Shown here: piece by piece, positions 1-40,600 of the stretch
Numbering within the stretch: the stretch's first letter is position 1
Layout: every line of letters begins with the position of its first letter
Assembly: GCA_008690995.1 (NCBI GenBank)
Contig: VRMN01000001.1
Coordinates: forward strand, 5,394,001 to 5,458,000
Direction of reading: 5' to 3'
DNA length: 64,000 nucleotides
Source of the DNA: Porphyridium purpureum
Taxonomy: Eukaryota; Rhodophyta; Bangiophyceae; Porphyridiales; Porphyridiaceae
Translations under genes and position numbers: made by a program
The notes under the pieces: generated by a model
Seen by the model: only the letters and a program-made list of their open reading frames with translations
The model's database searches: none
Told to the model about the DNA's origin: nothing

Positions 1-1726
1 TGTACTGCTGCTGATGCACGAAGAAGCGCCGGATGCGAAAGTGCAGCTCGTCTGGGATGTTGTAAAAGATGCAGAAGGCACGCAGCGCATCATCAAGCTC
101 GCGATAATAGGAGCGACTGGCACCCAAACGGGCAATGATACCACTCAAGTTGCCAATCACGTACACATAAAAGCTTGCCCCAATCGCCATTGCGAAGCTG
201 GTATACACACGCTCTTGAATGCTGATGGGCACGACATTGCCATACCCAGTCGTGGTGGCAATAGACGTGGCAAAGTACAGCGCCAGGACGTAGCTCTCAA
301 ATACATTTCCAACTAGACCAGCGCTTTCCACCCACGTATTCGTAGCCGACGGGTTGTTCAGCAGTGCGAAAAAATAAAAGAGGCACGCGATCCAGTGTGC
401 CGCTAGCACCCCAAATATCAGAAAAAGAAACATGAGCGCGACCTCGCCCTTGATGTTGAAACGCACCTCAAGCCACACGAAGGTGTCCGAGCCACGGACC
501 GACTGCCATAAAACTGGAATCTTAAAGACCTTGAGCATCGAGATGAAACTCAGCAAGTTCCACCCCGAAATGGCCACGTTCGGCTGGATCGCGAACGCAA
601 TGTACGGCCACGGAATCATGCCGAGCAGGTCCGGAAGGAACCAGGTTCGTAAATAGTGTATACAAATCTCCTTTTGTGATACGACGGAATGTCCGTCCTC
701 TTCGACAAAACCCGTAAAGAATGCCAGCACAAAGTCTGCTACAAACAACAGGGTGAGAAGGAGCTCGCCGTACCAGTACCAATCCGAAGTGGTCATGGTG
801 CCCAAGAAGCACGCAACATATACCGTCACGATGGATGAGTAAATAACTGCTATAAAAATGCACATTGCCCAGAACGGAAGAAACTTCGAGTCCGGTGGGA
901 TGTACAGCCTTGTTTCTGGCATGGCTTCGATTCGGAATTTATTTTCCTGCTCAGATGCCATAGCCTTCAGTGCGCTTTGCAAGAGCTCGCGGTCACGTTG
1001 TCTGGCTGAATGGCTAGCGGACGCACCCACGCTGCGCTCACTTGGCGGGGCATCGGCAATTAGATCTGAAGAGAGAAGGGCGTACTCCTCCTCCTGAACA
1101 TCGACCTCATCGGTGTCGACCCTCGTGCCGCTAGCCGAGCGTCTCAATGGGCCTGTATTCTGTTCACATGCTGCGTGCTCAAGATTGTCAAGATCAGCGT
1201 CAGTCACATCGATGGGATCGAAGGCCTCGCAGCCAGAGATTTCTTTCGGCTGGGTTTCGCTGCTCACGCGCGGTGATCCGGCGCCTTGCGGGAATTCGGC
1301 GTGACTCGTTGCGTGTACCTTATTGCCAATGGAATTCACCATCGTCCTCAGCGAGGCCGACACGGATGAAAAGTCCTGTCCACCAGGGGCATGTTCAAAG
1401 ACTGGTGCTTGAGAGCGGATCGAGTCGTCGTTGCCAAGCTCCCTGTCGGAAACCGACATCACTCGCCTCGTTGTGTCATTGTCGAAGGGCACCGCAGTGA
1501 GCGACTCAACGTCGCTGTCCTGTTCCGGCGTTTGCACCACCGACGACAAAGCCCCAACGTCATTCACCTGCTGCGGCTGTGCGCCCTGCACATGCTCATG
1601 CAGCACATCTGTGTCGTGGGGCGGAACCACCGCGGGTGAAGCTCCAGCTTCCGCAGATGGTGCTTGCCCTGAGTCATGCCGCGACACCGGCCCGCTGGGC
1701 GTCAGTGGCGTCTGGTCAGTCGACAT
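1..1726 (-). CDS. Cyclic-nucleotide-gated/KCNH-type K+ channel, copy A (3' end outside window)
   Basis: Partial gene: about 575 codons from the ATG to the left edge. It encodes the disordered acidic N-terminus, segments S1-S6 and the start of the C-linker. The start is set by homology: copies B and C share a Met followed by S-(T/S)-D-(Q/K); the equivalent ATG here ends at 1726 (another ATG lies at 1768). From about position 500 upward the sequence matches copy B exactly at an offset of 4197. Positions 157-499 (S5, pore, S6) differ from B at roughly 40 of 343 bases, yet the frame stays open. The selectivity filter reads TTTGYGNVVP instead of TITTIGYGDVVP, and S6 carries several changes. Members of this family are plasma- or endomembrane cation channels, usually K+-selective and modulated by cyclic nucleotide or an intrinsic ligand. 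The open frame makes a functional, diverged pore more likely than a pseudogene. Confidence 0.8.
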   Translation of the reverse strand, partial: MSTDQTPLTPSGPVSRHDSGQAPSAEAGASPAVVPPHDTDVLHEHVQGAQPQQVNDVGALSSVVQTPEQDSDVESLTAVPFDNDTTRRVMSVSDRELGNDDSIRSQAPVFEHAPGGQDFSSVSASLRTMVNSIGNKVHATSHAEFPQGAGSPRVSSETQPKEISGCEAFDPIDVTDADLDNLEHAACEQNTGPLRRSASGTRVDTDEVDVQEEEYALLSSDLIADAPPSERSVGASASHSARQRDRELLQSALKAMASEQENKFRIEAMPETRLYIPPDSKFLPFWAMCIFIAVIYSSIVTVYVACFLGTMTTSDWYWYGELLLTLLFVADFVLAFFTGFVEEDGHSVVSQKEICIHYLRTWFLPDLLGMIPWPYIAFAIQPNVAISGWNLLSFISMLKVFKIPVLWQSVRGSDTFVWLEVRFNIKGEVALMFLFLIFGVLAAHWIACLFYFFALLNNPSATNTWVESAGLVGNVFESYVLALYFATSIATTTGYGNVVPISIQERVYTSFAMAIGASFYVYVIGNLSGIIARLGASRSYYRELDDALRAFCIFYNIPDELHFRIRRFFVHQQQY

Positions 1727-2432
1727 GGCACCGCTGCCTGGTGGCATACCGCCACTGCCACTGCGCATGTGCACTCTTCGCTGCTTTGACGCGGGGCTTG
1801 CTTGGCCTGAACTTTCCTGCTGTCTTTGCTTGAAAATGCACGCTCCTGCTCTCCCTACCCAACACACACACAGCGCGTGACGCCCTTACTGCAACCAAAT
1901 GCAATGCGCAGGGCCGTCTGTGTCAGGGTGCAGGTGTTGACCCTTGGCGTGCGCGGTCTGTGCTTGAAATCTTCGGGATCTTCGGGATGCGTGTTTACCC
2001 GAGCGCAGGTGGGCAGGCTAGCGCGGCTGGCGCTTCCAAATGCGCAGGCAGTGCAGCGTATAAATGCACAGCGACAACAAGGTTGGGAAGGCAGGGGGTC
2101 TTGCAGACGGGTTCATTTTGCTTGCCGTTTGATTCAGGAGACGCCCCTGTAGAACGAAAAGGTTTCTCGAAGAAAATAATTTTTTTCCCTGGGGCGTAAG
2201 ATTTGAGTTCGTGCGGTGCATGACGCATTGTCGCCTCCAATGATCTGCCGGTCTCGCTCTGACCCCGAACGGCGACAACATTTCACACACACGAAAACAC
2301 ACACACAGATCAGCCACAAAGCCACAAGATGCGGGTGTGGAGACACAAAAGTGATCAAACGGCGCCGTTCGACTAGGCGTGTTCGTGATGACCACGTGGG
2401 GCGGTTCTGTAATTTGGTCATCATGATCGCAC

Positions 2433-2445
2433 GAGGTACAGTGTG
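2433..2445. promoter_or_regulatory. GTACAGTG-containing 13-mer upstream of channel A
   Basis: The 13-mer GAGGTACAGTGTG occurs here, at 6630-6642 (copy B) and at 10318-10330 (copy C), although copy C's upstream region has otherwise diverged. It contains the GTACAGTG word that recurs near many gene starts in this window. A promoter role is inference. Confidence 0.4.
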
Positions 2446-2800
2446 CTCGAATCAAGGTGCGGAATGGTCCGTCGGTGCATGCTTGCCGTGGAGCCGTGGA
2501 GCCGTCAAGCTGTCAAGCCGATAAGCCGTTAAGGGATGACGCTAAATAAGGGAAACTGCCGGCTGCATGAAAGCTTTGGGGGTTTACAATGCAGCGAAGC
2601 TGCTACATCGTGACGGAGAAGAGATTCTTGCTTCGAACAGTAGGGGCATGATTCACGTCGCGAGATCGAACAACGGCTTTTAATTACTGCCGCGCGTCGT
2701 GATGGAGTAGGCGAATTGGTTCATAGATGCCGGTCGTGAACGCCGACGCCGGCAGCGGAAATCGCAGATCCTGCACGTGAGCATGTAGAGAGGCGCGCCG

Positions 2801-3194
<394 letters not shown>

Positions 3195-3277
3195 CGATTC
3201 GGCTTGCATCGTGAAACACACGATTATCGATCTTAACCAAAGTATACTTCGAAGCGAATCCTGACAACGGAAACGAC

Positions 3278-5923
3278 TCAAGATGCACCTTGGGTGTCGC
3301 GTGCTGCGTCGGCGTCTAGTGAGAAGAAGGCGAGTCGTGCTGAACCAGCCCGTTGCGCTAGCTCCTCTTCGCGTGCAAGGAAGCGCAAGTTCTCGGCCAC
3401 AATGGCACGTGACTCCTGTAGAATCTCGCGCACCTGCTCAACAGAATCGAGGAGCTCGTCGAGCTCCGCCAATGGGTCTTTCGGCGGAACTTCTTCATGA
3501 TCGTCACTGGTAGAAGTTTCTTGGTCGAAGAGCACTGGAGACTTTCCACCGAGGCTATGTGATCGCCCCAACTGCTGCTCCTTTTTCGCTGCGAGAATTA
3601 CCTGAATCCGAGCCTCGGCACGCGCTTCTTCTTCCTCAACGCGAGAAAAATCCTCTGCGTGCATGGCCTTGGCCACTTGCAGTAACTTGCGCGAGAGGTT
3701 TCGCATGCGCGCACGCGTGCTAGCGAGCTCCACGAATCCGGCCCAAGATCGGAGCGATTCAAAATGCAGCACGCTAGGCAGTGCTCCACATGACTGCACA
3801 CCCGCCAGTAAGTCCTTGATAGGGAGCAGCAAAAGGTCGCAGTAGCCTTCGCTCACAACAGTGGACATGCGTCGCTTGTAGCAGACAAGACCCTCTTCGC
3901 CGAATACCGAGTCAGGCCCAAAGGAGCGTAAGGTCTCACCCTGTGGGGAGCGCTCTGTGCATGTGCCGCGCACCACAACGTAGCTCCCAAGAGGCCAAGT
4001 GTGGCGGAGAAATACAGTTTCGCCTGGCGCAAAGCTAAGCTGCACGGCGGATGCATACACTGAGGCAATATTCTCCGAATTCATGTCGTGGAGATAGACA
4101 GAGCGATTGGCAAAGTCGCCGTACGTCTCCAAGTTGACCTTTGCGTGCAGCTCGACGCTCAGCGCGCCTAGGAACTGCTGGGTGTGGGCATACGGGTTGT
4201 ACTGCTGCTGATGCACGAAGAAGCGCCGGATGCGAAAGTGCAGCTCGTCTGGGATGTTGTAAAAGATGCAGAAGGCACGCAGCGCATCATCAAGCTCGCG
4301 ATAATAGGAGCGACTGGCACCCAAACGGGCAATGATACCACTCAAGTTGCCAACCACGAACACGAAAAAGCTTGCCCCAATTGCCATGGCAAAACAGGTA
4401 TACGCAAGCTCTTGAACGCTGATGGGCACGACGTCGCCATACCCAATTGTCGTGATAGTATACGTCGCGAAGTACAGCGCCACGACGTAGCTGTCAAATA
4501 CGTTTCCCACAGTGCCAGCCCTTTCAACCCACGTATTCGTAGCCGACGGGTTGTTCAGCAGTGCGAAAAAATAAAAGAGGCACGCGATCCAGTGTGCCGC
4601 GAGCACCGCACACATCAGGAAAAGAAGCATGAGCGAGATCTCGCCCTTGATGTTGAAACGCACCTCAAGCCACACGAAGGTGTTCGATCCACGGAGCGAC
4701 TGCCATAAAACTGGAATCTTAAAGACCTTGAGCATCGAGATGAAACTCAGCAAGTTCCACCCCGAAATGGCCACGTTCGGCTGGATCGCGAACGCAATGT
4801 ACGGCCACGGAATCATGCCGAGCAGGTCCGGAAGGAACCAGGTTCGTAAATAGTGTATACAAATCTCCTTTTGTGATACGACGGAATGTCCGTCCTCTTC
4901 GACAAAACCCGTAAAGAATGCCAGCACAAAGTCTGCTACAAACAACAGGGTGAGAAGGAGCTCGCCGTACCAGTACCAATCCGAAGTGGTCATGGTGCCC
5001 AAGAAGCACGCAACATATACCGTCACGATGGATGAGTAAATAACTGCTATAAAAATGCACATTGCCCAGAACGGAAGAAACTTCGAGTCCGGTGGGATGT
5101 ACAGCCTTGTTTCTGGCATGGCTTCGATTCGGAATTTATTTTCCTGCTCAGATGCCATAGCCTTCAGTGCGCTTTGCAAGAGCTCGCGGTCACGTTGTCT
5201 GGCTGAATGGCTAGCGGACGCACCCACGCTGCGCTCACTTGGCGGGGCATCGGCAATTAGATCTGAAGAGAGAAGGGCGTACTCCTCCTCCTGAACATCG
5301 ACCTCATCGGTGTCGACCCTCGTGCCGCTAGCCGAGCGTCTCAATGGGCCTGTATTCTGTTCACATGCTGCGTGCTCAAGATTGTCAAGATCAGCGTCAG
5401 TCACATCGATGGGATCGAAGGCCTCGCAGCCAGAGATTTCTTTCGGCTGGGTTTCGCTGCTCACGCGCGGTGATCCGGCGCCTTGCGGGAATTCGGCGTG
5501 ACTCGTTGCGTGTACCTTATTGCCAATGGAATTCACCATCGTCCTCAGCGAGGCCGACACGGATGAAAAGTCCTGTCCACCAGGGGCATGTTCAAAGACT
5601 GGTGCTTGAGAGCGGATCGAGTCGTCGTTGCCAAGCTCCCTGTCGGAAACCGACATCACTCGCCTCGTTGTGTCATTGTCGAAGGGCACCGCAGTGAGCG
5701 ACTCAACGTCGCTGTCCTGTTCCGGCGTTTGCACCACCGACGACAAAGCCCCAACGTCATTCACCTGCTGCGGCTGTGCGCCCTGCACATGCTCATGCAG
5801 CACATCTGTGTCGTGGGGCGGAACCACCGCGGGTGAAGCTCCAGCTTCCGCAGATGGTGCTTGCCCTGAGTCATGCCGCGACACCGGCCCGCTGGGCGTC
5901 AGTGGCGTCTGGTCAGTCGACAT
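3278..5923 (-). CDS. Cyclic-nucleotide-gated/KCNH-type K+ channel, copy B (hybrid gene)
   Basis: Complete channel of about 881 residues from the conserved ATG (another in-frame ATG at 5965 adds 14). Approximate layout: disordered Ser/Asp-rich N-terminus 1-280; S1 283-308; S2 317-339; S3 359-380; S4 390-411, with few basic residues (K, K, R), so weak voltage sensing is possible; S5 427-456; filter GYGD 494-497; S6 505-533; C-linker; cyclic-nucleotide-binding domain about 623-708 with a phosphate-cassette-like FGEEGL...RRMST; then a Glu-rich helical tail. GYGD predicts K+ selectivity. The upstream part (base 4697 and above) matches copy A and the downstream part (4855 and below) matches copy C, so this gene is a recombinant of the two, joined within S3-S4. 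Confidence 0.88.
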   Translation of the reverse strand: MSTDQTPLTPSGPVSRHDSGQAPSAEAGASPAVVPPHDTDVLHEHVQGAQPQQVNDVGALSSVVQTPEQDSDVESLTAVPFDNDTTRRVMSVSDRELGNDDSIRSQAPVFEHAPGGQDFSSVSASLRTMVNSIGNKVHATSHAEFPQGAGSPRVSSETQPKEISGCEAFDPIDVTDADLDNLEHAACEQNTGPLRRSASGTRVDTDEVDVQEEEYALLSSDLIADAPPSERSVGASASHSARQRDRELLQSALKAMASEQENKFRIEAMPETRLYIPPDSKFLPFWAMCIFIAVIYSSIVTVYVACFLGTMTTSDWYWYGELLLTLLFVADFVLAFFTGFVEEDGHSVVSQKEICIHYLRTWFLPDLLGMIPWPYIAFAIQPNVAISGWNLLSFISMLKVFKIPVLWQSLRGSNTFVWLEVRFNIKGEISLMLLFLMCAVLAAHWIACLFYFFALLNNPSATNTWVERAGTVGNVFDSYVVALYFATYTITTIGYGDVVPISVQELAYTCFAMAIGASFFVFVVGNLSGIIARLGASRSYYRELDDALRAFCIFYNIPDELHFRIRRFFVHQQQYNPYAHTQQFLGALSVELHAKVNLETYGDFANRSVYLHDMNSENIASVYASAVQLSFAPGETVFLRHTWPLGSYVVVRGTCTERSPQGETLRSFGPDSVFGEEGLVCYKRRMSTVVSEGYCDLLLLPIKDLLAGVQSCGALPSVLHFESLRSWAGFVELASTRARMRNLSRKLLQVAKAMHAEDFSRVEEEEARAEARIQVILAAKKEQQLGRSHSLGGKSPVLFDQETSTSDDHEEVPPKDPLAELDELLDSVEQVREILQESRAIVAENLRFLAREEELAQRAGSARLAFFSLDADAARDTQGAS

Positions 5924-7474
<1,551 letters not shown>

Positions 7475-10114
7475 TCAAGATGCACCTTGGGTGTCGCGTG
7501 CTGCGTCGGCGTCTAGTGAGAAGAAGGCGAGTCGTGCTGAACCAGCCCGTTGCGCTAGCTCCTCTTCGCGTGCAAGGAAGCGCAAGTTCTCGGCCACAAT
7601 GGCACGTGACTCCTGTAGAATCTCGCGCACCTGCTCAACAGAATCGAGGAGCTCGTCGAGCTCCGCCAATGGGTCTTTCGGCGGAACTTCTTCATGATCG
7701 TCACTGGTAGAAGTTTCTTGGTCGAAGAGCACTGGAGACTTTCCACCGAGGCTATGTGATCGCCCCAACTGCTGCTCCTTTTTCGCTGCGAGAATTACCT
7801 GAATCCGAGCCTCGGCACGCGCTTCTTCTTCCTCAACGCGAGAAAAATCCTCTGCGTGCATGGCCTTGGCCACTTGCAGTAACTTGCGCGAGAGGTTTCG
7901 CATGCGCGCACGCGTGCTAGCGAGCTCCACGAATCCGGCCCAAGATCGGAGCGATTCAAAATGCAGCACGCTAGGCAGTGCTCCACATGACTGCACACCC
8001 GCCAGTAAGTCCTTGATAGGGAGCAGCAAAAGGTCGCAGTAGCCTTCGCTCACAACAGTGGACATGCGTCGCTTGTAGCAGACAAGACCCTCTTCGCCGA
8101 ATACCGAGTCAGGCCCAAAGGAGCGTAAGGTCTCACCCTGTGGGGAGCGCTCTGTGCATGTGCCGCGCACCACAACGTAGCTCCCAAGAGGCCAAGTGTG
8201 GCGGAGAAATACAGTTTCGCCTGGCGCAAAGCTAAGCTGCACGGCGGATGCATACACTGAGGCAATATTCTCCGAATTCATGTCGTGGAGATAGACAGAG
8301 CGATTGGCAAAGTCGCCGTACGTCTCCAAGTTGACCTTTGCGTGCAGCTCGACGCTCAGCGCGCCTAGGAACTGCTGGGTGTGGGCATACGGGTTGTACT
8401 GCTGCTGATGCACGAAGAAGCGCCGGATGCGAAAGTGCAGCTCGTCTGGGATGTTGTAAAAGATGCAGAAGGCACGCAGCGCATCATCAAGCTCGCGATA
8501 ATAGGAGCGACTGGCACCCAAACGGGCAATGATACCACTCAAGTTGCCAACCACGAACACGAAAAAGCTTGCCCCAATTGCCATGGCAAAACAGGTATAC
8601 GCAAGCTCTTGAACGCTGATGGGCACGACGTCGCCATACCCAATTGTCGTGATAGTATACGTCGCGAAGTACAGCGCCACGACGTAGCTGTCAAATACGT
8701 TTCCCACAGTGCCAGCCCTTTCAACCCACGTATTCGTAGCCGACGGGTTGTTCAGCAGTGCGAAAAAATAAAAGAGGCACGCGATCCAGTGTGCCGCGAG
8801 CACCGCACACATCAGGAAAAGAAGCATGAGCGAGATCTCGCCCTTGATGTTGAAACGCACCTCAAGCCACACGAAGGTGTTCGATCCACGGAGCGACTGC
8901 CATAAAACTGGAATCTTAAAGACCTTGAGCATCGAGATGAAACTCAGCAAGTTCCACCCCGAAATGGCCACGTTCGGCTGGATCGCGAACGCAATGTACG
9001 GCCACGGAATCATGCCGAGCAGGTCCGGAAGGAACCAGGTTCGTAAATAGTGCATACAAATCTCCTTTTGTGATACGACGGAATGTCCGTCCTCTTCGAC
9101 AAACCCCGTAAAGAATGCCAGCACAAAGTCTGCTACAAACAAAACGGTGAGAAGGAGCTCGCCGTACCAGTACCAATCCGAAGTGGTCATGGTGCCCAGG
9201 AAGCACGCAACATACACTGTCACGATGGATGAGTAAATAACTGCTATGAAAATACACATTTCCCAGAACAAAAGAAACTTCGAGTCCGGTGGGATGTACA
9301 GCCTTGTTTCTGGCATGGCTTCGATTCGGAATTTAGTGTCTTGTTCAACTGCCATGGTCTGCAAAGCACTGTGCAAGAGCTCGCGGTCACGTTGTCTGGT
9401 TGAATGGCTTGCGGAAGCATCCATGCTGCGCTCACTTGGCGTAACATCTGGAATTGAATCTGAAGAGACAAGGCTGTACTCTTTTCCCGGAACATCGACC
9501 TCATCGGTGTCGACTTTCTTGCGGCTAAGCAAGCGCTTCAACTGGCCAGTCTTCCGCGCACGGGCTCCGTGCTCAGTATTGTCAGGGTCTGCGTCATTCA
9601 GATCGACGGGATCGAAGGTCTTGCGGCTAATGATTCGTTTCGGCTGGCTTTCGCTGCTCACGCGCGGTGATCCGGCGCCTTGTGGTGATTCGGCGTGACT
9701 CGTTGCTTCCACCTTGTGACTGTTCAAATTCATCATCGTCAGCCGCGAGGTGGGCCCGGGTGATAGGTCCCATGCTCCCAGGGCATGTTCAAACACTGGT
9801 CCTTGAGAGCGGATCGAGTCTTCGTTGCCAAACTCCCTGTCAGAAACCGACATCACTCGCCTCTGTGTGTCATCGTCGAACGGCACCGCAGTCAGCGACT
9901 CAACGTCGCTGTCCTGTTCCGGCGTTTGCACCACCGACGACAAAGCCCCAACGTCATTCCTGTGCTGCGGTTGTGCGTCCTGCACATGCTGCACATCCGC
10001 CTCGTGCGGCAGAGCCACCTCGAGTGAAGCTCCAGTCTCAGCAGATGGCGCGCCTCCTATTGCGTGCTGCGGCAGCGGCTCACCGGGCGTCTGCGGTATC
10101 TTGTCACTGGACAT
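7475..10114 (-). CDS. Cyclic-nucleotide-gated/KCNH-type K+ channel, copy C
   Basis: Complete channel of about 879 residues with the same order of domains as copy B: acidic disordered N-terminus, S1-S6, GYGD filter, C-linker, cyclic-nucleotide-binding domain, helical tail. From 7475 to 9052 the DNA equals copy B; above 9053 (S2 and everything N-terminal) it diverges, with many substitutions and small indels in the disordered region. The ATG at 10114 starts MSSDK, matching MSTDQ of B; the longer open frame begins at GTG and is not used. Its own upstream region (10115-10350) is unrelated to that of A and B apart from a shared 13-mer at 10318. This is likely one of the two ancestral genes of the array. 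Confidence 0.88.
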   Translation of the reverse strand: MSSDKIPQTPGEPLPQHAIGGAPSAETGASLEVALPHEADVQHVQDAQPQHRNDVGALSSVVQTPEQDSDVESLTAVPFDDDTQRRVMSVSDREFGNEDSIRSQGPVFEHALGAWDLSPGPTSRLTMMNLNSHKVEATSHAESPQGAGSPRVSSESQPKRIISRKTFDPVDLNDADPDNTEHGARARKTGQLKRLLSRKKVDTDEVDVPGKEYSLVSSDSIPDVTPSERSMDASASHSTRQRDRELLHSALQTMAVEQDTKFRIEAMPETRLYIPPDSKFLLFWEMCIFIAVIYSSIVTVYVACFLGTMTTSDWYWYGELLLTVLFVADFVLAFFTGFVEEDGHSVVSQKEICMHYLRTWFLPDLLGMIPWPYIAFAIQPNVAISGWNLLSFISMLKVFKIPVLWQSLRGSNTFVWLEVRFNIKGEISLMLLFLMCAVLAAHWIACLFYFFALLNNPSATNTWVERAGTVGNVFDSYVVALYFATYTITTIGYGDVVPISVQELAYTCFAMAIGASFFVFVVGNLSGIIARLGASRSYYRELDDALRAFCIFYNIPDELHFRIRRFFVHQQQYNPYAHTQQFLGALSVELHAKVNLETYGDFANRSVYLHDMNSENIASVYASAVQLSFAPGETVFLRHTWPLGSYVVVRGTCTERSPQGETLRSFGPDSVFGEEGLVCYKRRMSTVVSEGYCDLLLLPIKDLLAGVQSCGALPSVLHFESLRSWAGFVELASTRARMRNLSRKLLQVAKAMHAEDFSRVEEEEARAEARIQVILAAKKEQQLGRSHSLGGKSPVLFDQETSTSDDHEEVPPKDPLAELDELLDSVEQVREILQESRAIVAENLRFLAREEELAQRAGSARLAFFSLDADAARDTQGAS

Positions 10115-10350
10115 GGCGGCGGCGCTCCCTACATCCCATGCCGCCACCGCCGCTGTGCATGCACGTTTGCCTCACCTCACATATCCCCCACACACTCACC
10201 GCCACGCCCAACAACACCCAAGCGGCCAGCGACCCTGTGCCACTCATAAAACAGGACCATTCTATTAGACCTCACGTAACACCCAATTTAACGCTTACGT
10301 AACACCCCTCACCGCATGAGGTACAGTGTGTTCTGTCACAAATGGTTCAT

Positions 10351-10648
10351 CTTTGATGATAGCGCCTTCGTGAAGCACGCGTATACCAAACGTGTACCAA
10401 TAGTAAACTACTGGTGGCTAGCTGAAGCAAGAGGTCCACAACAAGACGACTTTACTCCTTAACACAACCTAGCTCTTACCTCAAAAGGAGACAGAGCGCC
10501 GACTCGTCGGCCGTCTCTCACACTCTAATGATATACTACTGTGGTTAACCATTACGGTCACCAACCAACGGAGAGTTGTCATCATTAAGTATTTGATGAC
10601 TCCTCATCACGTCATCAGGCAGGCAGAGAGGGATGACAATATTCCACG
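10351..10648 (+). mobile_element. 298-bp non-coding mobile element, copy 1
   Basis: The same 298-bp sequence, about 98% identical and gap-free, occurs at 32181-32478. Here it is flanked by a direct 5-bp duplication, TTCAT, on both sides; the other copy is flanked by AAAGA. The ends are CTTTGATGAT and ATATTCCACG, with no clear terminal inverted repeats. Inside are two hairpins (GCCGAC/GTCGGC and GTCATCA/TGATGAC). It encodes no protein. A 5-bp target duplication fits a solo LTR or a small non-autonomous DNA element; the family cannot be fixed from two copies. High identity suggests a recent arrival. Confidence 0.75.
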
Positions 10649-10668
10649 TTCATTTTACAGTGAATAAG

Positions 10669-10690
10669 GTACAGTGAACAGGGTACAGTT
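10669..10690. promoter_or_regulatory. GTACAGTG/GTACAGTT pair upstream of UFD1
   Basis: GTACAGTG at 10669-10676 and GTACAGTT at 10683-10690 lie about 130-150 bp before the UFD1 ATG, just outside the mobile element. Function is inferred from recurrence of the word in this window. Confidence 0.4.
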
Positions 10691-10816
10691 AATGGTTTGG
10701 TGTGGCAGCTTTGGATGCCAGCGGGGCACAGCGGGAAGAAAGGTTTGCGGGGTTGAAGAAGGGGGGAGAAGAAAGATATGGGAGTGAGACGAGCTGGTGA
10801 GGGTTTTTGAGCAACC

Positions 10817-11845
10817 ATGTTTGGGTTTGGGTTGCATATGTATGATGATGGGATGCACGGACGTGCCCCAGCAGTGAACGGCGCGTTCACGCGGCGCTTG
10901 CGCGTGCACTCGTTGCTGGACGTGGGCCGATTCGAGCTGGAGAATGGCGATAAGATCATCTTGCCATCGTCCGCGCTCGACGCGCTGACCAGGCTCCATA
11001 TTGTGTACCCGATGATGTTTCGCATACAGGGCGCGTCCACAGATGCGTACACGCACTGCGGCGTGATTGAGTTTGTGGCAGAGGAAGGCCACGCGTACAT
11101 TCCGAGCTGGATGATGGTGCGTCTCAACGTCGTGGAGGGCGCATTCGTCACCATTCAGAACGCAAATCTGCCAAAGGGAACCGACGTCAAGTTCCAGCCA
11201 CAGACAGAAGACTTTCTCAACATTTCGAACCAGAAAGTGGTCCTGGAAGCCACCCTGCGACAATTCACATGCCTGACAGTGGGCGACTCGCTTCCCATTC
11301 ACTACAACAACAAGGTGTACATGCTAGACGTCATCTCACTCCAGCCAGGCTCAGCAGTATCTATTGTGGAGGCAGATGTTCGGACCGAGTTCGAAGCGCC
11401 ACCAGGGTATGTCGAGCCCACGTACGGTGTCCCCATTGCAGGCGCGGGAACCGACGGCGCGAAACCACCGAGTCTTGCCTCTTCGCCTCAGAATGTAGCG
11501 ATTCCGTTCGGAAAAGATGCCGCTGGAGGTGACCGCCTTGTTTCGCGACTTGAGTCGCTCAGAAGACATACGTTAGATGGGGAGGACTCGAGTAGCAGTG
11601 ACGAGGACGCTGGTCCAGGAGCAGCGGGGAGCAAGGGCGCCGCTCGGGTGGTTCCCTTTTCAGGCACAGGCCAAGCTCTCTCAGCCAACGTGCGCCGTGG
11701 CTCAGCGGCCGTGGCTGGCGTCGGTGCTCGTGCTGATGCCGACGGGCCGCAAGGCGAATCCACGCGTAAGGAGGGCAGCAGTGGCGCGGCCGCGACTCAG
11801 CCTTTCGTTCCGTTTGGCGGAGCGGGTCGCAGTTTGCGCGACTAG
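10817..11845 (+). CDS. UFD1: UFD1, ubiquitin recognition factor of the Cdc48/p97 complex
   Basis: 342 residues. UFD1 pairs with Npl4 as an adaptor of the AAA ATPase Cdc48/p97, extracting ubiquitinated proteins from the ER membrane, chromatin and other complexes. The UT3 fold (double-psi barrel) spans about 22-205, with the family core KIILPSSALDALTRL, YPMMFRI and YIPSWMM. The C-terminal third is disordered and acidic/Ser-rich. It carries two SHP boxes (F-x-G-x-G-x-x-L), FSGTGQAL at 281-288 and FGGAGRSL at 333-340, which bind the p97 N-domain. The ATG at 10817 follows a purine-rich leader; length matches the family. Confidence 0.93.
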   Translation: MFGFGLHMYDDGMHGRAPAVNGAFTRRLRVHSLLDVGRFELENGDKIILPSSALDALTRLHIVYPMMFRIQGASTDAYTHCGVIEFVAEEGHAYIPSWMMVRLNVVEGAFVTIQNANLPKGTDVKFQPQTEDFLNISNQKVVLEATLRQFTCLTVGDSLPIHYNNKVYMLDVISLQPGSAVSIVEADVRTEFEAPPGYVEPTYGVPIAGAGTDGAKPPSLASSPQNVAIPFGKDAAGGDRLVSRLESLRRHTLDGEDSSSSDEDAGPGAAGSKGAARVVPFSGTGQALSANVRRGSAAVAGVGARADADGPQGESTRKEGSSGAAATQPFVPFGGAGRSLRD

Positions 11846-12591
11846 CATAAGCGCTGCTCCGCACTAACAGAGAATATAAGATTGCCTGCACAATGGTTTG
11901 TTTTAAATATTCGCATGCCTTTCTGCATTTCGTGGTCAACATGCTCGTCAAGTGCGTGCTAGAGAAGCGCGGATTGCATTCTGTCCGTCATGCGTAGAAG
12001 AAAAGACCCAAGCATACGGAAAGTGTTGATTCTGTGAGCTGTCAAGCGAGCAGCAAATAGGGTTGTCGCTCACGTACAGCCAATATCCCTCCGAGCGGCG
12101 CCTCCACGCCAATGCAGCACAGCGCAGATTTGCATGCTCGCATCTGCACACAAATGAGAAGATCTGCTCTTGTCGCTGGATGCGTCTTTTGCAAATTGGC
12201 GGGAGAGAAAAGGATCCTTTTCGAGGAACGTTTTGCCAGCTGTGCACATCACTGAAGGGGTTTGCAAAAACCGATACGAACGATGTGGGTCGTGTCTGCC
12301 TCAAATTGAGCATCGAACGCGGTAACGCCATCAGTCGTCCGTATTCACGACCATCCCGGTTGAGATTTTCCCCCAAAGGTACAAGAAACCGGAGAGAAGT
12401 ACTGACCTGCCGTACCTGGAAGCACCGAGCGTCCCAAAATCTACGGAGATTTCCCAGCGAGGTCATACTTGCTCGCTACAGGAGCTTCTAGAATGAGAAT
12501 CTGTGCAACACTGGTAAGTTTTGCTGGAGAAAGCGGCAGTCTGCCACCGCAAAGAAAGACCCCGCAACAAACCGCTTCAGGCATAGTATCA

Positions 12592-12978
12592 TCAGTGAAT
12601 ACGCGCTGGTACGCAAGCGTCGGCAAGATCAGCGGGAAGTAGGCTGCATGTCGATCTGCATTTTTGCGCAGAAAGGTATCTCATGTCCTCACCATGATGG
12701 TTCTCCCTGCTCCATTCAGCACCATGCTCAATGAGCAGCCGAACGCATTCCAGGCGACTGCACAGTCCAGCAAGACGCAGCGCAGAGTCCACGTCGCGGT
12801 GCATGGCTTGTACCCATGCTCCAGACGTCCAACTTCTCCAGTTAATTTTCCTTGAGCACAGGCACAGTGGACGCGCGCTGCGTCGAGCTTCATGCGCCGT
12901 CCACACCGTCCACACCACACTGAATTCCGACAGACATGGCTTGGTGGCTGTTGCCAGTGACCGACGTGCCCCACACAC
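12592..12978 (-). pseudogene. Ankyrin-repeat gene relic
   Basis: One frame reads ALRLAGLCSRLECVRLLIEH followed by GAEW, a good ankyrin repeat (consensus TALHLAA..G..E.V.LLLEHGA). A second frame just upstream on the same strand reads VHCACAQGKL...RLEHGYKP, like the preceding repeat. The two halves are out of frame and the longest frame starts at GTG, so this is best read as a decayed ankyrin gene. Only about two repeats remain. A spliced gene is possible, but I see no convincing splice sites. Confidence 0.45.
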
Positions 12979-13005
12979 GCGTCACGCGGCTCAGCCTCTG
13001 TTCCT

Positions 13006-13234: not shown

Positions 13235-15679
13235 ATGGCGCTGCGCTCGTCGTGGAGAGGCTTGATTAATAGATGTACTGCTCGTGGCTGCATTGGAGGA
13301 AGAGCTGGACGACCAAAAAGGTGGCGCCGACAGTGCGGCATCCCGAAGAGATGCACGTCGTCAGCTCGTGCCTTTAGCGCGGCGGACACGGGATCCCCTG
13401 GAGCAGAATGCGAGCCTGCGGCGCATGATAATGTGTTCTATGTGTGGGGTGCAAACACAAATGTCGGCAAGACAGTCTTGAGCTATGCCGTCATGCAGGC
13501 CGCAGATCGGGCCCTGTTCAATACAGCGAGGCTCTTTGTGAAGCCCGTGCAGACAGGGCCCGTGTCCGAGCACGATGCGCCCAGAGTCAATGGCAAGATT
13601 GCACCTTCCCACCCAGACCAAAAGAATAATGCGCGCCAGACGATCTGCGTGCGGACATTGTTCCAGTTCGAAAACCCCGTGTCTCCGGATCTCGCCGCGG
13701 AACACGAGAGCAGGCACGTCGGTGACGAGCACATTATTCGTGCGACGCATAACGTTGTTGAAAACTGGGTGAAAGATTGCATCGGCAACAAAACAAATCC
13801 ATTTGTTTTGATTGAAGGTGCGGGAGGCCCACTCAGCCCGACGCCTTCCGGCAGTTTGCAGGCGGACGTGTACCGCCACATTCCGTTCCCCGTGGTACTG
13901 GTGGCGGATAATCGGCTGGGTGGTATCAGTAGCACGCTTGCAGCCCACGAATCTATCCGACTAAGGGGATTTGATGTTCCTTTTGTCGTTATTTTTGAGT
14001 CTGACGCTGGGCTGGCGAACGACGGGGCCCTTCGGAGGCACCTACGGGACTCACATTCGTGCGTATTCGTCATGCCACCGCTCCCCAAACCAGACGATTC
14101 GCTTCATGATTGGTATAGTAATCATTCAAGAGTGCACGAAGCTGCGAATGAGCTGGTGCTAGCCATGGACCGATGGAACCTTCAACGGCACGAGACACTT
14201 GCTCGAGCGCCGCTGCGTGCTCAGCGGGATCTGTGGTGGCCATTCACGCAACATCGCCTCGTTTCTTCCGACGCAGTCACTGTGATTGACTCGGCATTTC
14301 ACAACGATGTGCTGACGTTCCGAAGAGAAGAGCGAACAGGGAAGGGAGCATTTGTGCCCATGTTCGATGCTGTCGGGGCGTGGTGGACAAACGGGCTGGG
14401 GCACGGTGATGTTGGCCTGGCGAAAAGCATAGCCGCAGCAGCCGGTCGCTACGGCCACATTCTCTTCCCGCAAGTTGCACACGCGCCTGCGCTGGAACTT
14501 GCCGACCTGCTGCTCAACGGATCAGGTAAGCATTGGGCATCGCGTGTGTTCTTTTCAGACGACGGCTCCACGGGGATCGAGGTTTCACTGAAAATGGCGT
14601 TTCGCCTGCGCAGCAAGCGGCTTGGCTTGGAAGAATCGCCAGAGTACAAAATTATCGGATTGCAAGATTCCTACCACGGAGATACGCTCGGAGCGATGAA
14701 CTGCTCGCCTTCGAGTGTTTTCAATTCACAGCAGACTCCTTGGTACACGGAGAGCGGCATTTTCTTCAAGTGCCCAACGGTACAAATGCGAAACGGAGAG
14801 TGGACAGTCGAATATGTGCCCGCGGAGTCCAGTGCGGGACTCAAGCATCACGCTTTGTTCACTTCTCTTGAGGATATTTTGGACCTGAAGGGTCGGGAAG
14901 GGTCTGAGTTGAACGCGAAGTATTCTGCGGCTATCGAATTCGTACTGCAGCAGAATCGCCCCGAATCTCTGGGCGCTCTTCTCATCGAACCCGTGCTTCA
15001 AGGCGCAGGAGGTATGAAGCTGATTGATCCGCTGTTCCAGCGTCAGCTCGTCGATTCATGCCGTGCGCGCGGCATTCCAATTGTGTTTGATGAGGTTTTC
15101 TCCGGGCTGTGGCGACTTGGGTGCGAGAGCGGTGCAATCCTGCTGCAAACCCATCCTGATATTGCCACCTACTCAAAGCTACTTACTGGAGGCACCGTAC
15201 CACTCGCTGCCACGCTGGCCAGCGAGCAGGTATTCGAGAGCTTTGCGGGTGACTTGAAGGCACAGGCGCTGCTGCACGGGCACTCGTATTCCGGGCACGT
15301 GATTGGATGTGCAGCTGCCGTTCACTCGTTACAGCAGTATGAAAAAATGCCGACCTTTGACGCGCACAAGCGTTGCTTCGGTGCGTTCTGGGATGAAGCT
15401 GTCGTCCGCGATATATCCGTGAGTCCCGGAGTGCGCGGCGTAGTCGCAATAGGAACCGTGCTGGCCGTCGAGCTGGAGCCGGATTCTTCCTCGACGGGGT
15501 ACACCGCAAAGAGCGAGAGCGTGCAACGAATACTTGACCACCTACGAGCGCACGGCGTCTTTTCGCGTCCGTTGGGAAACGTAGTGTATGTCATGTGCGC
15601 ACCCGCCACGGAGCGAGCAGAGGCTGAAGTGCTAGCGCGAAAAGTACAAGCAGCGGTTCATAGTTTATCGCTCCCTTAG
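13235..15679 (+). CDS. BIO3-BIO1: Bifunctional dethiobiotin synthetase / DAPA aminotransferase
   Basis: 814 residues catalysing two successive biotin steps: PLP-dependent transamination of KAPA to DAPA, then ATP-dependent carboxylation of DAPA to dethiobiotin. Residues 1-50 are Arg/Ser-rich and free of acidic residues, like a mitochondrial presequence. The BioD half (about 66-330) has the P-loop GANTNVGKT at 72-80 and the segment LIEGAGGPLSP. The BioA half (about 345-814) has WWPFTQH, AWWTNGLGHGD, FDEVFSGLWRLG and YSKLLTGG, in which K648 should bind PLP. Plants and many fungi carry the same fusion order. The ATG at 13235 follows the promoter words at 13006-13080; there are no neighbours of the same pathway. 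Confidence 0.95.
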   Translation: MALRSSWRGLINRCTARGCIGGRAGRPKRWRRQCGIPKRCTSSARAFSAADTGSPGAECEPAAHDNVFYVWGANTNVGKTVLSYAVMQAADRALFNTARLFVKPVQTGPVSEHDAPRVNGKIAPSHPDQKNNARQTICVRTLFQFENPVSPDLAAEHESRHVGDEHIIRATHNVVENWVKDCIGNKTNPFVLIEGAGGPLSPTPSGSLQADVYRHIPFPVVLVADNRLGGISSTLAAHESIRLRGFDVPFVVIFESDAGLANDGALRRHLRDSHSCVFVMPPLPKPDDSLHDWYSNHSRVHEAANELVLAMDRWNLQRHETLARAPLRAQRDLWWPFTQHRLVSSDAVTVIDSAFHNDVLTFRREERTGKGAFVPMFDAVGAWWTNGLGHGDVGLAKSIAAAAGRYGHILFPQVAHAPALELADLLLNGSGKHWASRVFFSDDGSTGIEVSLKMAFRLRSKRLGLEESPEYKIIGLQDSYHGDTLGAMNCSPSSVFNSQQTPWYTESGIFFKCPTVQMRNGEWTVEYVPAESSAGLKHHALFTSLEDILDLKGREGSELNAKYSAAIEFVLQQNRPESLGALLIEPVLQGAGGMKLIDPLFQRQLVDSCRARGIPIVFDEVFSGLWRLGCESGAILLQTHPDIATYSKLLTGGTVPLAATLASEQVFESFAGDLKAQALLHGHSYSGHVIGCAAAVHSLQQYEKMPTFDAHKRCFGAFWDEAVVRDISVSPGVRGVVAIGTVLAVELEPDSSSTGYTAKSESVQRILDHLRAHGVFSRPLGNVVYVMCAPATERAEAEVLARKVQAAVHSLSLP

Positions 15680-25294: not shown

Positions 25295-26851
25295 ATGGCG
25301 TTTGTGAGTCACGTCGGAGTGGATATCGCAGCTCGGGAGCGGGTGAGATGCGGGGGTAGGACGCAGCAGTGTGCGTTGGCGGGCTCGACGCAGCCGTGGG
25401 CTTGCACAGCGGTGGCCGGAGGATCGAGCGCGAATGGCGCGTCGAAGCGCGTGACAAGGAGTAAGACGGGAAGCTCGGATGGCGCGACGAGATCGAAGCG
25501 TGGCTCTAGCGTCGCCGTGTCAGCTGCTGCAGCGGTCGCGGCGGCGCCGTCGGGTGTGTCGGGCGGCGCCGAGCGGTCGGTTGCGGTGGCGTTGCGTGTG
25601 CCGACAAAGAGTAAGAGTAGGCGTCGGAGTAGCATCGTGTCGGATGTTCTAACAGCCAGCACCCGCAAGACGGTCACGCGGCGCGCGTCAGAGCGTGTAG
25701 ACGACACGGTCAGATCACGGCGATCGGCACCTAGCGTGCTGAAAAGGGAAAAGGCGGAAGGGTCTTTGCGGCCTTCGCCTGTAGCGTCGAGCCCGGACGG
25801 AGATTTGGACCGGAAGAGCACGGACCGCCGCCGCAGTGGTGGCGGCGCGAGTGGTGGACACTTGCGCCGCAACTCGTCCGTGGGCCCAGCCGCGACAGCC
25901 ATGCGCCAATACCTAGCGGGGATTTCGCAGGATGACCTGCTTGAGCGCGCACAAGAAATTGCGCTTGCAAACCAAGTGCGCGCGCTTGTGGACTTGCAAA
26001 AAGTGCGCTCAGACGCCGCGCGTAAGCTCGGGCGTCCCGTGCCGCTGAACGAGTGGGCAGAAATGGTCGGCATGACCGCGCAGGACCTGACACTCGCCAT
26101 GCAGCTTGGCACGCGTGCCAAGAACCAGCTCGTGACATCGAACATGGGACTTGTCCACAATGTTGCGGGCAAGTACGCCGGCAAGGTGGAGACCTTGACG
26201 TTCCAGGATCTGGTGCAGGAGGGCGCGATGGGGCTCATGCGCGCGGCAGAGAAGTTTGACGCAAAGAAAGGTTGGCGGTTCTCGACGTACGCCACGTGGT
26301 GGATCCGTGCGTCAATGATGCGCTGCATGGATCACCAGGAGCGCTCCATCCGAGTTCCCGGGCCTGTGCTGGATCAATTTCGGCTGGTGAAGAAGACCTT
26401 CACTGTAATGTCTCTGCGAAAGGGACGCGAGCCCACGAATGAAGAGTTGGCGAAGGAGTTGAAACTGAGCACGGACAAGCTCCGCTTCATTCTTCAAAGC
26501 GGAGTTCGGAAACCGAGCTCGGTAGATCAGAACGTGGCACGGTCAGGCAGCAACGATGATGCACATAAGACGTTGCTTGACATTCTGCGCAGCGATGAAA
26601 ACGTAGAGGAGAATATTGTGGGCGAAATGCTCAAGGGCGACTTGGACCGCGTGCTTCGCCGGTACTTGAACCCGCAAGAGCGCGGCGTGGTGCGCCTGCG
26701 CTTTGGGCTTGAAGACGGACACACACGGACGCTAGAGGAAGTGGGCAAGGCGCTGAAGCTGAGCCGCGAGCGCATTCGGCAGGTCGTCTTCACAGCCATG
26801 AGAAAGCTGCGGGACCCACGTGTGCAGGCGGCTCTGCAGGATTACTTGTAG
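25295..26851 (+). CDS. SIG: Plastid RNA polymerase sigma-70 factor (nuclear-encoded)
   Basis: 518 residues from the ATG at 25295, which starts MAFVSHVGV, a red algal transit-peptide motif; the longer frame begins at a non-ATG codon. Residues 20-200 are Ser/Arg-rich and disordered. Conserved sigma regions follow: region 1.2 (about 210-235); region 2 (about 273-355) with NMGLVHNVAGKYAG, FQDLVQEGAMGLMRAAEKFD and GWRFSTYATWWIRASMMR (core binding, -10 recognition and melting); region 3 (PTNEELAKELKLS); region 4 (about 439-514) with RTLEEVGKALKLSRERIRQV, the -35-binding helix-turn-helix. It directs the plastid-encoded RNA polymerase to promoters. A purine-rich leader precedes the ATG. Confidence 0.95.
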   Translation: MAFVSHVGVDIAARERVRCGGRTQQCALAGSTQPWACTAVAGGSSANGASKRVTRSKTGSSDGATRSKRGSSVAVSAAAAVAAAPSGVSGGAERSVAVALRVPTKSKSRRRSSIVSDVLTASTRKTVTRRASERVDDTVRSRRSAPSVLKREKAEGSLRPSPVASSPDGDLDRKSTDRRRSGGGASGGHLRRNSSVGPAATAMRQYLAGISQDDLLERAQEIALANQVRALVDLQKVRSDAARKLGRPVPLNEWAEMVGMTAQDLTLAMQLGTRAKNQLVTSNMGLVHNVAGKYAGKVETLTFQDLVQEGAMGLMRAAEKFDAKKGWRFSTYATWWIRASMMRCMDHQERSIRVPGPVLDQFRLVKKTFTVMSLRKGREPTNEELAKELKLSTDKLRFILQSGVRKPSSVDQNVARSGSNDDAHKTLLDILRSDENVEENIVGEMLKGDLDRVLRRYLNPQERGVVRLRFGLEDGHTRTLEEVGKALKLSRERIRQVVFTAMRKLRDPRVQAALQDYL

Positions 26852-27857: not shown

Positions 27858-28781
27858 TCATTCGTCGGCGCCTGAGCCGCTGCCATCCGCGTCGCCGTCG
27901 ACCTCGCGGTTCTGCGTGTCAAGCTGCTCCATCAGCTTGAGAAGAATCTTGTCGTCACGGTCAGAGACCGTCCGCGCAGCCGCCTTGAGGATGAATTTGC
28001 CGCCTCGTTTTTGGATTTCGGTCTTGATCGCTTCGAGCGCGGTCTCAAGGGCGTCGAAGCCCTTCTTCTTGTCCACGGCCTGTGTTGTCGCAACGTACAG
28101 CGGCGGCGCGACGAGCTTGACACGAACGCGCATTTCCTCAGACGAGGCTTCCTCGCCCGCCTTGAGTGCCGCCTTGATGGCGTCAATGCCTTCAAACCCA
28201 AAACATGTGACCTCAAAGTCAGCGCGCATTTTGACTGCTTTGGGTTTGAGTCGGCCCTCAATGTTTTTCATCAGCTCGGCCCTTTCCTGCTCGGACATGT
28301 CGAGCCCTTTGAAAATGGCGTCCGCGTCCTGCACGGCGGCACGGAATGCATCGTACGCATGCCCAAACTTGCGGTAAAGGGGCCAGCCTACTCGAATGTA
28401 CAAGTCCTCGAGATCGACCTCGGTTAGTTCCGCGACGCGCCGCATAATCGAGTGCACGGTGCTCGCCTTGTTCCACTTCTCCTCCATGCGCACGAGATCG
28501 TCGGCAGTCACGCGCGATTTCGACAGATCGATGTACCCCTTTTCTTTATCGACGCGCACCACCACGACGACCTCCTGGCTGCCAACCCGCAGCAGCCTGT
28601 TCACCGAGCGGATGCGCCGACGAGACAGCTCCGAAAGCATGATCATGCCTTGGATCTTGTTGTACTCCAGCAGCTGCACATACGCCCCCACGTCCTGAAT
28701 ATCCTTCACGAGCACCATCACCACATCGTCCGGCTCCGGAAACGGGTTTTCGTACATCCGACATTCTAAATTGACCACCAT
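27858..28781 (-). CDS. EIF2A (eIF2-alpha): Translation initiation factor eIF2, alpha subunit
   Basis: 307 residues from the ATG ending at 28781 (the longer frame starts at GTG). It is the regulatory subunit of eIF2, which brings Met-tRNAi to the 40S ribosome. The S1 domain (about 10-85) contains DVVMVLVKDIQDVGAYVQLL and the loop MLSELSRRRIRS, in which Ser53 corresponds to human Ser51, the target of GCN2-type kinases; Ser50 matches human Ser48. Then come VDKEKGYIDLSKSRV, the helical domain (YDAFRAAVQD) and the alpha/beta domain (RADFEVTCFGFEGIDAIKAA, LVAPPLYVATT), ending in an acidic tail. The whole length aligns with human eIF2-alpha. Confidence 0.96.
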   Translation of the reverse strand: MVVNLECRMYENPFPEPDDVVMVLVKDIQDVGAYVQLLEYNKIQGMIMLSELSRRRIRSVNRLLRVGSQEVVVVVRVDKEKGYIDLSKSRVTADDLVRMEEKWNKASTVHSIMRRVAELTEVDLEDLYIRVGWPLYRKFGHAYDAFRAAVQDADAIFKGLDMSEQERAELMKNIEGRLKPKAVKMRADFEVTCFGFEGIDAIKAALKAGEEASSEEMRVRVKLVAPPLYVATTQAVDKKKGFDALETALEAIKTEIQKRGGKFILKAAARTVSDRDDKILLKLMEQLDTQNREVDGDADGSGSGADE

Positions 28782-37602: not shown

Positions 37603-40600
37603 TCACGGAGTGGAGATGAGCGTGCGGATTTGGCGTGTCATCTGGCGCGTGAACGCGAGGTCGACGCCGACGGAATACGCAGAGTCCGCGAGCTCGTCCA
37701 AATGTGAGAAGAACGGCAGCAGCACGCTGCGCGCGTCGATCAGAAATTCCGCGGCCTTTTCGCCAGCATGCCCAAAGACACCGTGCAACTGCTCAAGGCG
37801 GTCTTTCGTCTCGCCGGCTTCGCCGCGGCGGCGGGGCGCGTGCGACCCGGACATGCTCACAATGTGCTCGGCGCCGTGCTCGTGCACTGCCGCGCGGCAG
37901 TACTCGCGCAGAATGAGTAGTGCGTGCTCCAGGCACGTCACGCATGTGCGCATCAGGTCTGCCGCGTCGTGCGCGCTGCGATCGAAACACGACGACAGTA
38001 CGCCGGCGGAACTGCTCGCTGAACCGGCCGCGCTGTTCAAGCTCAGCCCGTATTCCTCTGCGCAAAACGTGCGCAGCTCGGCAAGCTGCTGGGGCGCCAG
38101 CCTCGAAGCACTCAGCCCGTTTCCAAGACCAGAACCCGACCCGACTACGAAGCCCAGCTCGGCACGCTGCTGTTCCGCCAGCGCGCGAAGCCGCGCCGCC
38201 TGCTCAGCATAGCGCCGCAGCTCTACGTGCGCCACGAGCGCGCACTGCAGAACATCCGCCAGGGGCGGGTTTCTTCCAAGGTACTGTCTGGGGGTTTGCG
38301 GGTCAGTCTGTTCCAGATGGCGGTCGGCCTCCAGGATCAATACTGGGTCAAAGAAGCTCAGCACCTGCGCAACGGGGCTCTTAATGCCGCCCAGAAGAGA
38401 GCGTAGTGCATGAAGGCGCGTGCGGGCAATGTCGTGTTCAAACACCGAGCCACCGCTCGGATGCAGAATACTACTGCGCCGCGCCTCGCGCGGCGTGTGC
38501 GGTATCACGCGTGCCGCGCCGCACGACAGCGCGCCGCTGAATGCGCCTCCACTGCTGTCTCCCACTCTCGCGCCAGAAAGAGCCACCGCTAGAGGAACAC
38601 GCTCGCGAGCACCCGGTACCAGCTTCCACAGAACCCGCGCCGCCGCCACGCGCAGCGCGTGCACGCTCCGCACGAAACGAATGCCCAGCGCTTCGTCGCC
38701 GCTGCCGCCGCCAATCATGCCACTGTCATGCACAGCAAAGTCCGACGCATCGCTTCCCGGTAGGCACGCGAGTATCGAGCACACATCACCGGCAGCCTGA
38801 ACAAACTGCAGATTTCGAGACCCCACGTTCGCGATCGTATCTGCAAGCAGTGCGCACCCGGCATCGACAACGCAAAGCACTTTACCCAGCACGATTCTGC
38901 TCGGGAGCGAAGCCGATGGCGCGGCCGTTACCGCTGTCCCAAAGGGACCCTTGCTGTTCAGCGGTACGATAGCAGGTGCGACAGATGCAAAGCCAGATAT
39001 CAAAACGGACGCACAAATGCTAGCAATGGAAGAGGCGAGCTGAGCCCGTTTCTCATCGATAACTCCACTCGCGCCGGCTGCGGCAGCGAGAGTGTAATGC
39101 GAATCCAGTTGCGCAGTGTCCATCATCATTGTCCCCTGCTCTTCATTCTGTAAGCGTGTCACAGAAGGCAAAATCAGTTGCGTGCGCGCGGCTACCTGGC
39201 CAGCGAGCGCCGCGAGAAGCTCAAACACGTTCGCCTCGGCAAGAACGCGCGCTCCACCCTGCATATCAGCCACAGCCTGAAGCACGGAAAGACCATTCTG
39301 CGCGACGAATAGGACCTGCGTGCTGCGTACATCCTGTGCGCTAACAAAGTGCTGTTGCGTTTGAGTGCCGCTTTGCGTGATGCCAACATCCCCGACACTG
39401 CATGCGCGTGCGATCAACGCCGGAGCATCATGCTCAGCAAACACGCTGCTCACCACTTGGCGCAATCTGCCCTGCGCCTCAAGAGCGCGCAGTGCTCGCG
39501 ACTGGGGCGCAGCCGCCGGCTGTAAGTCCATGCGCAGAACCGGCGCTTCTGTGTCCCACTTCAAAAACATAGCAACGCAACTTAAGGCCGCAGCGCGCGT
39601 AGCCGGGAAGGCTGCCGCCGCAGCGTCCTGTGCGGCTGTGGCCATCAGCGCCTCAATGGCGCTTGTGCTCATACCTTCCTCACTGCGCACCGATGTGACA
39701 ACGCGCGTGCTCAGCGCGCGCGTCACCAGGGCTGCCACTGAGTCCGGGGCGTTCCGATGCGAACCCAAAGTACCTTCATCGTGCTCCTCACTGCCAGCCA
39801 CAAGCTCCAAATACTTGAGCATGAAGACGGCAGCTGCGTAAAGTGCGGCACGCGTAGGCTCGGCATCGGCCCGCTGACATAACGGACCCACAATGACTCG
39901 CATCAATGAACTCAGGAGAGAGGCCATTTCGCCGGCGCTCACCAGCTTCACGGGGGCAGAAGCGGATGTAAATGCCGCGACCGCGGAGGCCTGCATTTCT
40001 GCGCCTTCTAGCTGGTCGTCCCCGGCTTGGTCACCAGCAGGTGCTGCAACAGGGACGGAAGCGGGGACCGAACTGGAAGCACTCGAGCACAAAGCGTCCT
40101 CGTACAGCTTCGCAATACATAAGAGCACCGACTCGCCGGCGACACGACCGCTGTCGATTGCAAAAAGCTTTTCGTACCGGCCAGCGAAAGGCACTCCGGA
40201 CCGAGCGCCAGGGCCAGAGCCAGGTCCCACGTCACGTATTGCCATCCCTTCCATAAGCTCAGTCATAATCTCGCACAGCATCGAGTTGCCCTCATCACCA
40301 GAGTTCGCACCCGAACTCAAACTGCTAGCGCATAATTCTGCACCAAGCAACTGCCGCCAGGCCGTCAGGCACGTGAAGGCCGACAGGCGTTTCGCATTGC
40401 AGTCAAGCTCCCACTGAGCGATCGGCTCGCACGCGCGGAGCAGAGCCAGCATGACGCGCAGAATGCCAGACCCGGAGAAAATGCTGAACCAGCCGGTTGC
40501 ACCATCTACGCCATCGACGCGGTCATCGGTCGCTTGATCTGCAAGTTGGAGGGACGATATGCTCGAGTCTGCGCACAGGCGAGTGTCGAGCGCGACTAGC

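Follow-up and report, generated by a model that had tools for sequence, protein, structure and literature searches.

Three tandem ion-channel genes in Porphyridium purpureum, the middle one a probable recent hybrid of its neighbours

The window analysed here is a stretch of 64,000 nucleotides from Porphyridium purpureum with a GC content of 57% and long single-exon frames. Three near-identical ion-channel genes lie in tandem at its start, all on the minus strand, and are transcribed in the order C, B and A. Copy C (7475–10114) encodes 879 aa from its ATG and has a divergent N-terminal half of its own at 9053–10114. Copy B (3278–5965) encodes 895 aa from its ATG and carries an N-terminal half of the A type together with a pore and a C-terminal half of the C type. 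Copy A (1–1768) runs beyond the window edge with its C-terminal part. Its 589 codons from the ATG at 1768 cover the N-terminal region, S1–S6 and the start of the C-linker, and all statements about A refer to this part, as its C-terminal half lies to the left of the window. The spacer between the stop codon of B and the start of A (1769–3277) is present in duplicate between the stop codon of C and the start of B (5966–7474), with 0 differences at an offset of 4197.

Several other genes in the window were recognisable. One open frame at 13235–15679 contained an AAA_26 domain, which we take to be dethiobiotin-synthetase-like, followed by a class-III aminotransferase; it is a candidate for a fused biotin-synthesis gene, presumably the BIO3-BIO1 fusion. 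A sigma-70 factor gene with regions 2, 3 and 4 was located at 25295–26851; as its surroundings are those of a eukaryotic nucleus, with the eIF2-alpha gene at 27858–28781, it suggests a plastid-bearing organism. Together with the GC content and the long single-exon frames, these two genes point to an alga with few introns. The single open frame of 2397 aa at 37603–44796 matched Nup192 below the Pfam cut-off (25 vs 28.7 bits) and is a nucleoporin-scaffold candidate.

The Ion_trans pore domain, which was accompanied by Ion_trans_2, scored above the Pfam cut-off in 3/3 channel copies, and the cNMP-binding domain PF00027 did so in B and C, the corresponding part of A being outside the window. The copies look like intact genes for K+-type channels that belong to the cyclic-nucleotide-binding-domain superfamily, which for A refers to its visible part. 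They share the six-helix Ion_trans domain, the GYG filter and, in B and C, the cNMP-binding domain with the KCNH, HCN and plant AKT-KAT channels, but they differ from them in a long N-terminal region, to which no Pfam family matched, and in a putative S4 with 3 K/R in 35 residues (B residues 398–432, window 4670–4774; helix limits by homology only). This putative S4 stretch was identical in C, differed at two residues in A and held fewer K/R than the aligned S4 of HCN. The voltage sensitivity of these channels may be weak or absent.

When B was compared with solved structures, HCN3, HCN4, HCN1 and AKT1 were closest, with similar E-values. A 233-residue pore piece of A gave 80.4 bits with hERG, 76.1 with HCN1 and 62.4 with AKT1, and the matching 233 residues of B gave 77.2 bits with HCN1, 76.2 with hERG and 68.8 with AKT1. 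The shift in scores between A and B was small and gave no sign that A carries a pore from a foreign subfamily. Because HCN, AKT1 and hERG were similarly close, no subfamily was given to these channels. Relatives of copy B were also sought in viral_contigs and genome_contigs, where 1 and 27 pattern matches, respectively, yielded 0 confirmed relatives.

A comparison of A with B at an offset of 4197 showed 0 differences at 1–156, 44 at 157–499 and again 0 at 500–4855 (4356 bp). The sequence-only reading had reported an island of about 40 differences in 343 bases, in an open frame and between identical flanks, and both the open frame and the identical flanks were borne out, with a count of 44/343. 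The island corresponds to A residues 424–538, of which 24/115 differ from B and C, and its counterpart in B (4354–4696) is of the C type. The filter was TTTGYGN in A, as had been read from the sequence, and TTIGYGD in both B and C. The earlier statement that the island covers exactly S5, pore and S6 was too strong. The hydrophobic stretches of S5 and S6 were placed at about residues 435–472 and 517–551 of B by hydropathy only, in agreement with the hERG alignment, and the island starts about 10 residues ahead of S5 and stops inside S6. A single-sequence AlphaFold model of B residues 286–760 had a mean pLDDT of 36.8 and was not used.

The residue that follows GYG is N in the A filter, as in hERG, and D in B and C, and inner S6 residues also differ between A and B. 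In hERG, N629 was proposed as an inactivation switch (PMC3404103), and the same article cites a paper on hERG N629D titled 'Altered gating and selectivity' (PMC3404103). A and B may therefore differ in gating. As judged from its residues, A keeps a K+-type filter; loss of K+ selectivity was not indicated, since both filters keep GYG, although N versus D may still matter.

The third copy was then included in a three-way codon alignment restricted to gap-free columns (573 codons in the A/C version; 16 N-terminal A codons absent from C were omitted). A and C differed at 206 sites. At 162 of these, which all lie on the N-terminal side, B agreed with A; at the other 44, which all lie in the island, it agreed with C, and it had 0 private changes. 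The middle copy thus has the pattern of a one-breakpoint recombinant of both neighbours, with a single switch between the first site where B equals C, at 499, and the last site where B equals A, at 659; under random site order, the chance of so clean a split into two blocks is about 10^-45. The A N-terminal half (659–1768) is identical to B and divergent from C. B and C show no difference between the stop codon and the junction zone (3278–4855 vs 7475–9052) and diverge in the N-terminal half. The switch falls inside a stretch of parental identity, 500–658, where all three copies agree over 159 bp and which corresponds to 4697–4855 in B; this identity may itself be a by-product.

The duplicated unit includes the spacer, and its length equals the register shift: the 4356-bp stretch at 500–4855 is identical to 4697–9052 and spans one complete unit of 4197 bp and a further 159 bp. 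The absence of any difference over these 4356 bp limits the divergence between the two copies of this tandem duplication to less than about 0.0007 per site (95% bound), which makes the duplication a recent event. A search of the region upstream of A (1769–3277) against that upstream of C (10115–13000) gave a single match below E 0.5, 21 bp long with E 0.004, a result compatible with an older split of A and C or with other limits of the duplication.

Very probably, then, B is a recent hybrid of C and A that arose by unequal crossing-over, and the island is ordinary divergence between A and C. That B is the recombinant copy, and crossing-over the molecular route, is what we infer from the switch pattern. 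If A were the recombinant instead, its pore would have to come from a donor not seen here, and B versus C would take another event to explain. The sequence-only reading had offered, as one of two explanations, that a pore from another paralogue was pasted into A. A single breakpoint in B accounts for all 206 sites without recourse to a missing donor, so such a transfer is not needed. What stands of that proposal is recombination between paralogues, which is the likely cause and joined a pore to the N-terminal half of the other paralogue, but B is a simpler choice of recipient than A.

The divergence between A and C on the N-terminal side, from 659 onward, was as strong as in the island and is absent from a comparison of A and B only. 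This decides what the island means: as B lacks the island of A, the pore of A looks specially changed, though it is only as diverged as the N-terminal half. Divergence per site was 0.128 at 157–499 and 0.135 at 659–1560, with transition to transversion counts of 23:21 and 66:56, respectively. Among degenerate codons for identical amino acids, 14/86 differed in the island and 33/253 on the N-terminal side (Fisher p 0.47). The A/C dS was 0.258 in the island compared to 0.262 N-terminal of 658, a rough clock comparison that is also compatible with a donor of similar age, since dS was uneven on the N-terminal side (0.301 for the N-terminal region compared to 0.146 for S1–S4) and the island has about 82 synonymous sites.

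The dN/dS between A and C was 0.41 in the island and 0.55 N-terminal of 658. The island contained 26 nonsynonymous and 18 synonymous changes, which is fewer nonsynonymous changes than under neutrality (binomial p 0.012), and the pore of A is under constraint, as its open frame and dN/dS also show. Decay of copy A was ruled out by the same two observations; a synonymous to non-synonymous ratio and stops indicative of decay, which had been named beforehand as evidence against a maintained function, were looked for and not found. Positive selection on the island was likewise unsupported by this ratio and by the deficit of nonsynonymous changes. The suggestion that diversification of ion selectivity drove the island found no support in these values or in the filter, where GYG is kept. 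Changed residues between A and C were more frequent in the island (24/115) than in S1–S4 (4/85, Fisher p 0.0009), whereas the N:S ratio did not differ significantly between the two (p 0.19–0.34). Sequence change is fast in the N-terminal region of the channels (9053–10114 vs 4856–5965), where 87/269 aligned residues differ between A and C, and slight in S1–S4 (4/85).

The proposed mechanism would start from an older tandem pair of paralogues in which C preceded A in the direction of transcription. Misaligned recombination between the two within the conserved 500–658, around S3–S4, would have yielded C, followed by a new B with the N-terminal half of A and the pore and C-terminal half of C, followed by A. 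The same step would have duplicated the 4197-bp unit together with its spacer. The island at 157–499 would then be native A-type sequence that was not passed on to B and in which the ordinary divergence between A and C shows. Its end within S6 would be set by the second stretch in which A equals C, at 156 and below, probably through gene conversion. B would presumably work as an A/C hybrid channel.

What is unusual between A and C is not the divergent island but the stretches of identity. At 1–156, the end of S6 and the C-linker, where A matches B and C, 0/51 degenerate codons for identical amino acids differed between A and C (Fisher p 0.0018 vs the rest), and at 500–658 the count was 0/47 degenerate codons (Fisher p 0.003 vs the rest), both tracts having been picked after looking. 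When codons were shuffled, the longest run free of synonymous changes (A residues 354–425, 64 degenerate codons) had p 0.018, and the second-longest (A residues 529–589, 58 codons), which is cut off at the window edge, had p 0.040. The identity of A and C in both tracts is beyond what the crossover model alone explains. Short gene conversions are likely to lie behind it, one of them perhaps tied to the exchange itself, and 1–156 is a probable conversion tract. The earlier idea that gene conversion had homogenised everything except the pore therefore holds for 1–156 and 500–658 only and fails for the N-terminal half, where A and C have diverged at the rate of the pore.

An opsin-like shielding of the pore, with ongoing conversion of A with C or B and selection that guards a difference between pores doing different jobs, would also leave identical tracts on both sides of an island. 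The larger residue change in the pore than in S1–S4, the differences at the D/N position of the filter and in inner S6, and the slightly closer match of the A piece to hERG (80.4 vs 76.2 bits for B) with its greater distance from AKT1 (62.4 vs 68.8) agree with such shielding, and the L/M opsins of gibbons provide a precedent (PMC3213168). However, the N-terminal half was not homogenised between A and C (0.135 per site at 659–1560), one flanking tract is only 159 bp long and the other runs off the window, and neither the dN/dS of 0.41 nor the comparison of N:S between pore and S1–S4 speaks for such selection. We consider shielding unlikely. A further reading is a natural pore-swap device, in which repeated recombination would shuffle N-terminal and voltage-sensor halves with two functionally different pores (GYGD and GYGN), selection would keep the pore difference, and homogenised flanks near S4 and the C-linker would keep the modules compatible; this we regard as very unlikely.

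The sharp boundaries on both sides of the island would equally be expected if the pore of A had come by gene conversion from another, unsampled paralogue. This would call for an unseen donor and for a separate event for B and C, whose 3' halves are identical and whose N-terminal halves are divergent, and it would make the near-equal divergence of the island and the N-terminal half a coincidence. Searches of 10148–64000 with blastn and tblastn brought up no further channel copy, and the probability that we give to a pasted pore is very small indeed. Perfect 4.2-kb repeats are difficult to assemble, and repeat collapse, cross-copy polishing or a misjoin could have created the identity at 1–156, which reaches the window edge, and perhaps the third copy too. 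The 44 differences of the island, its protein constraint and its A/C-like spectrum are nevertheless unlike sequencing error, and we judge an assembly artefact to be distinctly unlikely.

Anti-Lepore-type hybrid genes are known from the delta and beta globins (PMC10954745, PMC5434260). In the anti-Lepore layout of three genes, the hybrid lies in the middle of a tandem array and joins 5' sequence of the downstream gene to 3' sequence of the upstream gene, with one junction within homology, and the same is found here; in contrast, the present case concerns ion-channel genes and is known from one sequence, not as a within-species variant. The formation of chimeric duplicates by a single duplication across adjacent genes has been reviewed (PMC3449122). 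The primate L/M opsin array is similar in its tandem membrane-protein paralogues, its conversion and its divergent functional core, and L/M hybrids occur in humans (PMC3213168). It differs in that the N-terminal half of the channel is here as divergent as the core, and again the channel array is known from one sequence. The hallmark of the opsin case, homogenised surroundings of the core between the same two genes, was not seen for A and C on the visible N-terminal side. Among the titles and abstract openings listed in a literature search, none reported the three-copy channel array.

The comparison of only two out of three tandem copies can disguise a plain recombination junction as a selected domain. 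The island is best read as mostly ordinary, and B as a natural pore-swap hybrid of recent origin. Should the array prove real, a comparison of A with B would isolate the effect of the pore and a comparison of B with C that of the N-terminal half. The three copies would then allow electrophysiology without engineering, provided that the C-terminal half of A beyond the window matches.
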